A program made the position numbers and the translations under genes. A stretch of 25,898 nucleotides of DNA from a virus, in IMG/VR virus record IMGVR_UViG_3300032069_000048, positions 1-25,898 of that record; one strand, given 5' to 3'. Positions 3,449 through 17,928 of the stretch are shown piece by piece. Within the stretch, counting starts at the first letter, position 1. Each line of letters starts with the position of its first letter. The notes under the pieces are model-generated. The model saw nothing but the letters and a program-made list of their open reading frames with translations, ran no database searches and was not told the DNA's origin.

Positions 3449-3476
3449 ATTAAGAAAGATGAAAGGAGAAAAAATT

Positions 3477-4103
3477 ATGTGGAAAACAGCAAAAATCACG
3501 ATTAGTTTTATTGGGAGATTATGTGGAAGTGTTCCCTTAAAAAAGGAAATTGTTGATGCCTGGTTAACTGCACGAATGCCAAAAGAAAAACCAGAAGAAG
3601 GAAGATCCCTCGAAGAAATTAAAAACGAAGTATTAGAAAGTATTCAAGAAACCGAAGAAAAAGTGACATTAGGTTTTCAAAATAATAAAAATGGTTTAAT
3701 CGTTCGAGGAGGCTGTTGGAAAGCTCATCTAAAGGATTGTGCCAACGAGATAAAAAAATCCATTAAACCGGAGATAAAAGCAATGAGATCAAAAGTAGCA
3801 AATAAAATTTATGTTGATGAATATTTTGTCCATCTCAAGAGAAATGGGAAAGATATTTCTCAATCTGATGGGACTTTTGACCAACCTGTTCATGTGATGA
3901 CTCCTCTCGGCCCTCGCAATGCTTTAAAGACAATTCAATATGTCGAAAAAGCAATTGTAACTTTTCATTTGAAACTTCTGGAGGATAAAGAGATCACACC
4001 TGAAATTGTTCAACAGATTTTTGAATATGGAAAGATTCATGGATTTGGTGGTGAGCGTGGCATGGGAGAAGGCCGATATGAATTTGAGATTGAATGGCAA
4101 TAA
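3477..4103 (+). CDS. RAMP/Cas7-like phage protein of unknown function (208 aa)
   Basis: ATG 3477 has AAAGGAG at ideal spacing, so I prefer it to the in-frame ATG 3459, which lies upstream of that site. The protein opens with a beta strand and Gly turn (KITISFIGRLCGSVPLKK). A charged helical segment follows, then GLIVRGGCWKAHLKDCANEI (residues ~78-97), resembling the 'G-x-x-x-K-x-x-L-R-x-A' turn-helix of Cas7/RAMP proteins. A conserved-looking HVMTPLGPRNALK follows around residue 140. The C-terminal glycine-rich loop and strand (GFGGERGMGEGRYEFEIEW, ~188-206) resembles the RAMP signature G-rich loop. Such folds bind RNA in CRISPR effectors. Assignment to the superfamily is by eye and needs a structure search. 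The gene is followed after five bases by the ordered array at 4108-4444, which strongly suggests a functional link. Confidence 0.5.
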   Translation: MWKTAKITISFIGRLCGSVPLKKEIVDAWLTARMPKEKPEEGRSLEEIKNEVLESIQETEEKVTLGFQNNKNGLIVRGGCWKAHLKDCANEIKKSIKPEIKAMRSKVANKIYVDEYFVHLKRNGKDISQSDGTFDQPVHVMTPLGPRNALKTIQYVEKAIVTFHLKLLEDKEITPEIVQQIFEYGKIHGFGGERGMGEGRYEFEIEWQ

Positions 4104-4107
4104 AAAT

Positions 4108-4444
4108 GAGAAGTGCTTTGCTTTGAAATGGTCTGCGGTGCCTTCGGGGAGTGGTTTGGATTGGCATGCTTTGTTGTGATCTGCCTTCGAGATGTGAATT
4201 GCGTTGCTATGAGATGGAATGCCTTCGAGAGTTGAAATGACTTGCCATGTTCTGCCTTGGATTGCCTTCGAGTAATGAAGTGGCTTGATTTGAGTTGAGA
4301 TGTCTTCGAGAATTGGTCTGGAGTGGAATGTAATGCCTTCGAGAAGTGACATGGTTTGGACTGCATTGTTGTGGGATGCCTTCGAGGGCTGAAGTGCGGT
4401 GCGGTGCTTTCGAGGAATGGAGTGACGTGGCGTGGGTTGTACTG
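4108..4444 (+). repeat. Phased NNNTG pentamer array with CCTTCGAG separators (novel array)
   Basis: Nine spacers consist of exact multiples of the pentamer NNNTG, with 6, 7, 6, 7, 6, 5, 7, 4 and 6 copies. They lie at 4111-4140, 4149-4183, 4192-4221, 4230-4264, 4273-4302, 4311-4335, 4344-4378, 4387-4406 and 4415-4444. Eight separators start at 4141, 4184, 4222, 4265, 4303, 4336, 4379 and 4407. Five are CCTTCGAG; the others are CCTTCGGG (4141), TCTTCGAG (4303) and CTTTCGAG (4407). A half-separator GAG (4108-4110) opens the array. All 54 TG dinucleotides are intact, while the triplets show no repeated pattern. It is not protein coding: the 5-base period is incompatible with codons, and antisense frames through it are by-products. 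It lies between the RAMP-like gene and the gpZ-like gene in an apparent operon, so it is probably transcribed rightward. Function unknown; a guide-RNA array is my leading inference. Confidence 0.85.
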
Positions 4445-16633: not shown

Positions 16634-17653
16634 ATGGATGGATGGCTTAAACAATCAGTGGCAATTACATTAAGCATAGGGCCTTTTCTTGATTCAACCG
16701 ATGGAAACACTCAAGAAACTGCTCTAACGATTGCTCAGGCAGATGTTGTTCTGTCAAAGGCAGGTGGAGCTTTCGCAGCTAAGAACGATGCCACAAGTTG
16801 CACCCACGATACCAAGGGTTATTATTCCTGTCCTCTTAATGTGACTGATACAGGCACACTTGGAATGCTAAAACTTGCCGTCCATGTCGCTGGGGCTTTA
16901 GCAGTTTGGCATACATGGATGGTGGTTTCCGCTCAAGTCTGGGATTCGCTTTTTGGCGCAGATAAACTTGATGTTGCTGTGGTGGAACAAGCCAACATTG
17001 ACTTTGGAGCTCTCCAGAAAGCCTCTCTTAATGCTGCGACTCCAGCCTCGGTGGTTGGGGCGGTGGGTTCAGTAACAGGGGCAGTAGGTAGTGTAACAGG
17101 TGCAGTGGGTTCAGTGACAGCAGGAGTAACCGTCGCCACAAATAATGATAAGACTGGATATGGACTAAGCGCAGCAGCGGTTCAAGCTGTTTGGGATGCT
17201 CTTCTAACTGCTCTCACTACCGCTGGTTCTATTGGAAAGAAACTTGCCGATTGGGTTGTCGGGACAATAGACACTTACACTGGGAATACTAAGCAAACAG
17301 GTGATGCTTTTGCTCGATTGGGCGCTCCATCTGGGGCTTCGATAAGCGCTGACATTGCGGCAGTAAAATCAGATTCCGGGGCCATTCTCGCCGATACCGG
17401 AACAGATGGGGTTGTCGTGAATGCCGCTGGCCTTGCCGCTGATGCCGTGGATGAAATATTGGATGAGATTGTTGAAGGGACAATAACGTTAAGACAAGCA
17501 ATGAGACTTTTACTTGCGGCTGATTCTGGGAAATCTGGAGGTGGCGGAACAGCCACATTGACATTTCGGGATGTGGCAGATTTAAAGGCCAGGATTACGG
17601 CCACGGTTGATGCCAATGGCAATAGGACTGCAATCACCAGGGATGGGACATAA
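16634..17653 (+). CDS. Fibre-like virion protein with VGAVGSVTG repeats (339 aa)
   Basis: The N-terminal ~110 residues form a beta domain (VAITLSIGPFLDSTDGNTQE, ALTIAQADVVLSKAGGAFAA, MLKLAVHVAGALAVWHTWMV) found in virion proteins of environmental phages. A linker with three 7-residue repeats (VGAVGSVTGAVGSVTG) encoded at 17060-17122 leads to Ala-rich helices and a C-terminal part ending in ATLTFRDVADLKARITATVD. Probably a fibre or head-surface appendage. It overlaps the next gene by one base. Confidence 0.55.
   Translation: MDGWLKQSVAITLSIGPFLDSTDGNTQETALTIAQADVVLSKAGGAFAAKNDATSCTHDTKGYYSCPLNVTDTGTLGMLKLAVHVAGALAVWHTWMVVSAQVWDSLFGADKLDVAVVEQANIDFGALQKASLNAATPASVVGAVGSVTGAVGSVTGAVGSVTAGVTVATNNDKTGYGLSAAAVQAVWDALLTALTTAGSIGKKLADWVVGTIDTYTGNTKQTGDAFARLGAPSGASISADIAAVKSDSGAILADTGTDGVVVNAAGLAADAVDEILDEIVEGTITLRQAMRLLLAADSGKSGGGGTATLTFRDVADLKARITATVDANGNRTAITRDGT
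17060..17122 (+). repeat. Three tandem 21-bp in-frame repeats
   Basis: Three 21-base units (17060-17080, 17081-17101, 17102-17122) encode GAVGSVT-type repeats in the fibre-like protein. The copies differ at several third positions, so the repeat is not brand new. Confidence 0.8.
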
Positions 17654-17928
17654 TGGCCCTTCTCAATCCAGGATATTGGCAATCTACTTATTGGCAAGAT
17701 AGTTATTGGCAGCAGGATTTTTGGCCGGAATATGGGATTCCCATTGCTCCAACGGAGACCATCCGGCAACAGATAATCGATGCTATTGATGCGAGGTTTA
17801 AAACGATTGGTAAGTATGGTCTTGGAGAAGGGCCTCTTGGAGAATATTTTCTTGGAGGTGAAGCGGGAGATTCAATCCGGCAACAGATAATCGATGCTAT
17901 TGATGCGAGGTTAAAGACAATATTATGA
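17653..17928 (+). CDS. YW-repeat protein fused to duplicated tail-terminator N-terminus (91 aa)
   Basis: Residues 1-27 carry aromatic repeats (GYWQSTYW, DSYWQQDFWPEYG) like small virion proteins of related phages. Residues ~36-51 and ~74-89 both read IRQQIIDAIDAR-(F/L)-KTI, encoded by a 38-base exact direct repeat. This segment is the usual N-terminus of tail-terminator (gpU-like) proteins, and the remainder of such a protein lies 2.1 kb downstream at 20048-20407. The ORF is therefore probably a fusion of a small virion gene with the severed start of the tail-terminator gene. Whether it still functions is unclear. Confidence 0.6.
   Translation: MALLNPGYWQSTYWQDSYWQQDFWPEYGIPIAPTETIRQQIIDAIDARFKTIGKYGLGEGPLGEYFLGGEAGDSIRQQIIDAIDARLKTIL
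17761..17912 (+). repeat. 38-bp exact direct repeat (17761-17798 and 17875-17912)
   Basis: Both copies begin ATCCGGCAACAGATAATCGA and end GATGCGAGGTT, 114 bases apart, so the duplication is in frame and codes for the same peptide. Exact identity points to a recent duplication or recombination event. Confidence 0.9.

Follow-up and report, generated by a model that had tools for sequence, protein, structure and literature searches.

A phased NNNTG array beside a RAMP protein gene in a phage, and its likeness to Viral Interference Programmable Repeats

Viral Interference Programmable Repeats (VIPR), as set out in the main text of an April 2026 preprint (PMC13142463 / bioRxiv 2026.04.26.720920), combine a phage RAMP protein with guide RNAs made of 9–16 YNNGG repeats. 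Double-stranded DNA is recognised by an xNN rule in which the skipped base falls on the codon wobble position, and in the VIPR of phage SUSP1 only N1N2 pair with the target, the skip base going unread (PMC13142463). According to the same text, VIPR acts against competing phages, with binding, repression and phage-defence assays in place, and comprises seven types with varied array layouts and the consensus GGY/NN 'or a related consensus' (PMC13142463). TIGR-Tas systems use a Nop-domain protein and 9-nt contiguous dual spacers (PMC12045711). Viral CRISPR mini-arrays serve competition between viruses through spacers directed against related ones, and work with host CRISPR repeats and host Cas proteins (PMC11656645).

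Here we compare these systems with a locus in a 25,898-nt stretch of viral DNA (IMG/VR record IMGVR_UViG_3300032069_000048), hereafter the window. An array of pentamers and the RAMP protein gene next to it very probably make up an RNA-guided system for nucleic-acid recognition, encoded by the phage, that belongs with VIPR as a triplet-coded variant.

A phased pentamer array and its neighbouring gene

The array proper occupies 4111–4444 (334 nt) and consists of 54 NNNTG units in nine runs of 6, 7, 6, 7, 6, 5, 7, 4 and 6 units (30, 35, 30, 35, 30, 25, 35, 20 and 30 nt, each a multiple of five), through which the TG phase is unbroken. The chance likelihood of 54 phased TG pairs is about (1/16)^54. 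This recount agrees with the initial annotation, which had reported 54 pentamers with TG in phase without exception and nine spacers of multiple-of-five length; its end coordinate also stands, whereas the start moves from 4108 to 4111, positions 4108–4110 closing a degenerate separator (AAAATGAG). Eight 8-nt separators divide the nine runs (CCTTCGGG, five copies of CCTTCGAG, TCTTCGAG and CTTTCGAG), and all eight differ from the consensus by at most one change, as had been stated. The features are listed in Table 1.

Table 1 Coordinates of the RAMP gene and of the parsed array in the window.
Feature	Position	Strand	Content	Basis and remarks
RAMP (Cas7/Csm3-like, Vipr-like) gene	3459..4103	+	214 aa	family beside array in all evaluable loci; fold match; start at 3477 also possible
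Degenerate leading separator	4103..4110	+	AAAATGAG	array parse; weak alone; abuts upstream gene's stop codon
Guide 1	4111..4140	+	6 units, AAG.CTT.CTT.AAA.GTC.CGG	array parse
Separator	4141..4148	+	CCTTCGGG	array parse
Guide 2	4149..4183	+	7 units, GAG.GTT.GAT.GCA.CTT.TTG.ATC	array parse
Separator	4184..4191	+	CCTTCGAG	array parse
Guide 3	4192..4221	+	6 units, ATG.AAT.CGT.CTA.AGA.GAA	array parse
Separator	4222..4229	+	CCTTCGAG	array parse
Guide 4	4230..4264	+	7 units, AGT.AAA.ACT.CCA.TTC.CCT.GAT	array parse
Separator	4265..4272	+	CCTTCGAG	array parse
Guide 5	4273..4302	+	6 units, TAA.AAG.GCT.ATT.AGT.AGA	array parse
Separator	4303..4310	+	TCTTCGAG	array parse
Guide 6	4311..4335	+	5 units, AAT.GTC.GAG.GAA.TAA	array parse
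Separator	4336..4343	+	CCTTCGAG	array parse
Guide 7	4344..4378	+	7 units, AAG.ACA.GTT.GAC.CAT.TTG.GGA	array parse
Separator	4379..4386	+	CCTTCGAG	array parse
Guide 8	4387..4406	+	4 units, GGC.AAG.CGG.CGG	array parse
Separator	4407..4414	+	CTTTCGAG	array parse
Guide 9	4415..4444	+	6 units, GAA.GAG.ACG.GCG.GGT.TAC	array parse

The nine guides are mutually distinct, none being a duplicate of another. Tandem Repeats Finder called no repeat at the array, and true pentanucleotide microsatellites look quite different; an ordinary tandem repeat was therefore rejected, in line with the earlier view that no spacer is a copy and that this is not ordinary tandem duplication. Uninterrupted dinucleotide runs of at least eight at periods 3 to 12 were found nowhere in the window, the longest in the array being seven. 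Rfam returned no match for the array, and its predicted RNA folding was no better than that of shuffled sequences. Antisense ORFs drawn over the array were dismissed as artefacts of the CANNN pattern.

An all-against-all comparison of neighbouring ORFs yielded one cluster that adjoins the array in 35 loci. Its member in the window is the RAMP gene directly upstream, which the initial annotation overlooked and which is half of the system. A protein profile built from 29 members was then run against IMG/VR without use of the array and detected 66 loci, several of which are near-identical copies of one phage. Three of these (L115, L131 and L132) are truncated at the gene or directly behind it, and a same-strand array lies beside the RAMP gene in every one of the remaining evaluable loci (63/63), including L076, L125 and L133, whose units more often carry CG, TT or TC. 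The neighbour-ORF clustering gave no other gene common to most array loci, and no universal accessory gene comparable to vap of VIPR was seen. A small unknown protein ('..DAKTADALNTTLKGATYLNVKLKMDY..', in ORFs of 76–153 aa) follows the RAMP gene in eight loci (for example L029:8674-8904, L051:5904-6167 and L055:3130-3525); PHROGs held no match for it, and it is a candidate accessory gene.

The AlphaFold model of the window's RAMP protein has a pLDDT of 91. Foldseek matched this model best to type VII Cas7 (E = 1.1e-8) and also to type III Csm3, and every one of the 50 PDB matches listed is a CRISPR RAMP backbone structure. The closest viral models include a phage protein annotated as RAMP superfamily, and a G-rich C-terminal motif is conserved in the family. 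At the sequence level, PHROGs and PADLOC contained no family for the protein, Pfam produced noise only, and NCBIfam gave only a weak cas5_csm4 match, with no family model reaching its cut-off. Among named phages and plasmids, a single match at 24.5%, in Microcystis phage Mae-JY09, came from searching with a relative.

The array family in other phages

An IMG/VR scan for TG recurring every 5 nt, with a single gap of 11 nt, returned 51 stretches, most of them NNNTG runs with 8-nt NNNNCGAG separators (examples of this type across the family are ACGCCGAG, TAGCCGAG, ATGCCGAG and ACTTCGAG). The non-CGAG matches were plain pentamer microsatellites, such as GCTGT, and were discarded; a stricter pattern gave 44 stretches. 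The initial annotation had proposed a pattern search of genomes and metagenomes; in IMG/VR, dozens of phages share the grammar (NNN-YG)4-12 between NNNNCGAG separators. Counted over 4833 units, TG makes up 79% of the fixed pairs, CG 12.5%, GG 3% and AG 2%; the separators of the family follow A[C/A]G[T/C]CGAG, and guides are mostly 4–10 units in size. Among GTDB species genomes the pattern matched at only four places (L065, L066, L067 and L068). The full system is present in L065, a Dehalococcoidia MAG contig, L066 and L067 look like chance matches, and L068, a Lachnospiraceae MAG contig, carries GGAATGGAATGCAATGAAATGAAATCGA repeats that resemble human satellite DNA and that we take to be probable assembly contamination.

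The close relatives L093, L095 and L025 differ in that entire guides have been lost or gained, and one guide is common to L121 and L049 at different positions. The initial annotation had proposed comparing relatives and held that conserved triplets would speak against a function; this objection does not apply, because relatives share or lose each guide in its entirety, which is how guides should behave. Nearly every genome has a single array region. In one phage (contig IMGVR_UViG_3300026536_000001; G032, with loci L195, L196 and L197) about fifteen small arrays are dispersed over 59 kb on both strands, and some of them directly adjoin the carrier's own homologue of the guide-matched gene. A complete-looking array also lies on the reverse strand of a 43-kb contig (L010:1394-1714) where the RAMP profile detects no protein.

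What the triplets spell and match

With YG omitted, dinucleotide preference from N3 to the next N1 correlated at 0.61 with that of contiguous phage DNA, against -0.17 ± 0.25 when the order of units was shuffled (observed z = 5.5). The control pairings (N1 with N1', N3 with N3', and N3 with the next-but-one unit) carried no contiguity signal, and the signal was weak (z = 0.9) in phages whose N3 is not G-rich. By this sequence measure, the triplets joined without YG read as contiguous natural sequence. They are also as codon-like as real genes; the codon-phase mixture of the guides gives weight to phases without peptide support as well, and no strand claim is drawn from it. Triplet composition, N3 included, follows genome G+C, with N3 being G-rich in G+C-rich phages.

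Guide translations were searched against phage proteomes. By far the top match was a 20-unit guide antisense to LPWFVGNARLGFVYPEHGF (score 91), which adjoins the carrier's own gene with LPWFTGSARLGYIYPEQGF. In other phages, two homologues match this guide at 44/60 and 43/60 bases; the carrier's own gene matches it at 37/60. From inspection only, the matched gene appears terminase-like; Pfam had no match for it and PHROGs unknown families only. Further peptide matches were VTDPPYG (DPPY methylase) and LKTGYLPY and, more weakly, HDLRHT (tyrosine integrase motif), matched in two phages. The LPWFVGNARLGFVYPEHGF, VTDPPYG and LKTGYLPY matches exceeded the controls by a wide margin, and frame (-,1) gave 3 matches against 0 expected at a score excess of at least 18. 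We gave no weight to a match in the sense frame (KTMEEWG) or to two guides resembling tRNA, since none of these exceeds chance by itself. The guide reading HGYAGERRDG matches another phage's RAMP gene at 26/30 bases, with all four mismatches at N3, and its own RAMP gene at 18/30 only. Wherever a coding match is clear, N3 coincides with the wobble position of the codon.

The genes matched in other phages encode a methylase, an integrase, a terminase-like protein and a RAMP protein; the guides that match them are those of related phages, not those of the window. Of the matched guides, four read antisense and the one for the RAMP gene reads sense; matching on both strands fits DNA as the target. 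These codon matches in other phages, the contiguity seen once YG is removed, and the retention of N1, N2 and N3 while Y4 drifts (see below) uphold the earlier proposal that information is stored in the triplets. One guide, CAC.TTG.TCG.GCG.AAG.TTT.TCG, is common to four phages (L165, L186, L204 and L096) with changes almost only at Y4/G5, and its antisense reading is ENFADK.

Searching with N1N2 at target period 3 gave 43 matches against about 12.5 in controls, although 24 of the 43 come from the single RAMP-gene guide and the excess among the other 19 is modest. Neither N1N2 at periods 2, 4 and 5 nor N2N3 or N1N3 at period 3 showed an excess. As the N1N2 excess appears only at period 3, one 5-nt unit corresponds to three bases of the target. 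No target turned up for any of the window's nine guides, either in their own locus or in the N1N2 period search. The full 21-mer of guide 7 had no match in IMG/VR, nor did two strong guides when their exact N1N2 patterns were used, and most guides across loci had no match in the sequences searched. Own-locus targets with gaps of 1–6 bases between triplets showed no excess, none was seen in all loci with gaps of 1–3, and other position subsets and periods gave no own-locus targets. Compared by Blast with named phages, 18 concatenated long guides gave marginal matches only (E of 0.3 or higher).

Interpretation, kinship and genomic context

In a system of the VIPR kind, the array would be transcribed, probably together with the RAMP gene. 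RAMP subunits would line each guide, one per pentamer, holding YG aside and offering NNN for pairing, and the complex would bind the genes of competing phages as DNA and repress them. The separators would serve as the ends or handles of single guides, and arrays would evolve through gain, loss and exchange of whole guides. Transcription, RNA processing, binding and repression are here modelled on the VIPR precedent, by which the RAMP protein probably uses its guides against rival phages.

Several other explanations were weighed. That the array is a degenerate microsatellite or a chance periodicity deserves practically no credence: true pentanucleotide microsatellites do surface in the same scan, but the triplets are free, the 8-nt separators are conserved, and the strict link to one protein family in 63/63 loci already refutes it. 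We also think it very improbable that the array provides the RAMP protein with a repeat or scaffold RNA that targets nothing, the triplets being free filler. Such filler could track genome G+C, as the triplets do, and would leave most guides unmatched; it fits poorly with the contiguity signal across YG, the codon-like triplets, the peptide matches to conserved motifs and the conservation of NNN over Y4 between phages. Somewhat less remote, yet still improbable, is an array that autoregulates the adjacent genes of the carrier phage and not those of other phages. In L196, L195 and L097 the carrier itself has a homologue of the matched gene and the array lies next to it, but own genes match worse than the homologues of other phages, and own-locus searches gave no excess under any rule.

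A far more serious contender, which we rate a little short of an even prospect, is that the ordinary VIPR rule holds, so that pairing with the target is confined to N1N2. Under that rule N3 would face a target base that is skipped unread (the codon wobble) and would be a scaffold position under loose constraint, and no triplet code would exist. The wobble base lies on N3 in the matched genes with mismatches concentrated there, no position pair other than N1N2 at period 3 is in excess, and N3 is G-rich in G+C-rich phages, which is close to the first G of NNGGY. Against this, among guides common to different phages and picked by N1N2 alone, N3 has changed in 6.5% of units (about five independent groups); N1 differs in 7.3% and N2 in 12.5% when each is left out in turn, and Y4 in 23.4%, so that N3 behaves like N1 and N2. 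Moreover, N3 depends on N2 and on the following N1 just as neighbouring bases of contiguous DNA do, and the window array shows no G-richness at N3. The converse, a VIPR type with a true triplet code in which all NNN bases are read against a contiguous target and only YG is left out, with many short head-to-tail guides and an 8-nt CGAG handle as in a CRISPR array, distinct from the seven described types, is a possibility that we consider less likely than not.

The locus resembles VIPR in its small phage-encoded RAMP protein, the RRM core and glycine-rich loop being represented here by the Foldseek matches to Cas7/Csm3 and by the G-rich C-terminal motif, and in pentamer-repeat guides with fixed and variable positions, which lie beside the RAMP gene in an array that would be transcribed. 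It also shares three target bases per five-base unit with wobble at the third position, and, in guides of the window's relatives, matches on both strands and targets in other phages that include their RAMP genes. It departs from VIPR type II (SUSP1) in the unit, NNN-YG with a free N3 instead of NN-GGY, and in its mostly 4–10-unit guides set head to tail with 8-nt NNNNCGAG separators, as opposed to 9–16 units and a folded tail; N3 is as conserved as N1 and N2, unlike under the SUSP1 rule. In the sequence of Escherichia phage SUSP1, YNNGG tracts adjoin a gene encoding a protein with a G-rich loop at its end. The family RAMP profile (A1) had no match in SUSP1, and hhalign of this profile against SUSP1 Vipr aligned only the G-loop end (probability 3.8%). 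With no match at the level of protein profiles, kinship with VIPR therefore rests on fold and architecture. Since the preprint allows for 'a related consensus', the NNN-YG family, compared here with its main text, may be one of the seven types. The initial annotation was right to set the format apart from CRISPR, DGR, DnaA-trio and iteron elements; its statement that no known element has such a format gives way to VIPR (PMC13142463).

Class 1 CRISPR-Cas (type VII Cas7, type III Csm3) is approached in the RAMP fold, by structure match only, and in the guide array, whose guides would be read in segments interrupted by protein. The separators here are 8 nt long, and type I/III crRNAs have an 8-nt repeat-derived 5' handle. 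Unlike class 1 systems, the locus has a period of 5, not 6, and degenerate 8-nt separators in place of identical repeats of 24–47 nt, with a fixed YG every 5 nt inside the guide; Pfam and PHROGs found no cas1, cas2, cas6, cas10 or cas5 among the window genes tested. TIGR-Tas is likewise a phage-encoded array with 8–12-nt repeats and one associated protein, but the protein here is a RAMP and not a Nop-domain protein, and the array has a single separator type and pentamer units. Spacers against related viruses are shared with viral CRISPR mini-arrays, whereas the phage here has its own protein and its own code.

These findings offer an independent, sequence-only confirmation of VIPR logic, with the guide written in five bases per unit and the target read in three, and extend that logic to a large family of phages whose consensus differs and whose arrays pack many guides compactly. 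Triplet coding together with CRISPR-like separators bears on the origin of class 1 CRISPR arrays and of their 8-nt handles, and a true triplet code, if confirmed, would fall naturally between VIPR and class 1 CRISPR as an intermediate. NNNYG units and NNNNCGAG separators let a simple pattern search find such systems and make their targets decodable, so that phage-phage conflict networks in metagenomes become readable.

The window is a phage by its replication O-like protein, terminase subunits, portal, head protease, major head protein and tape measure protein (Pfam/PHROGs). Named phages and plasmids gave no match for the window protein or region. Direct repeats (CTGTTACACAAAAGTGACATGA three times and TACAAAAGAAACTAT 2.7 times) lie at 2490–2594, inside the replication O-like gene (2148–2903). 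The lambda ori sits within gene O, and by analogy these repeats are possibly the phage replication origin. Further in-gene tandem repeats, of 21-nt and 15-nt units, occur at 17057–17120 and 17674–17711, at the border of two unknown genes.
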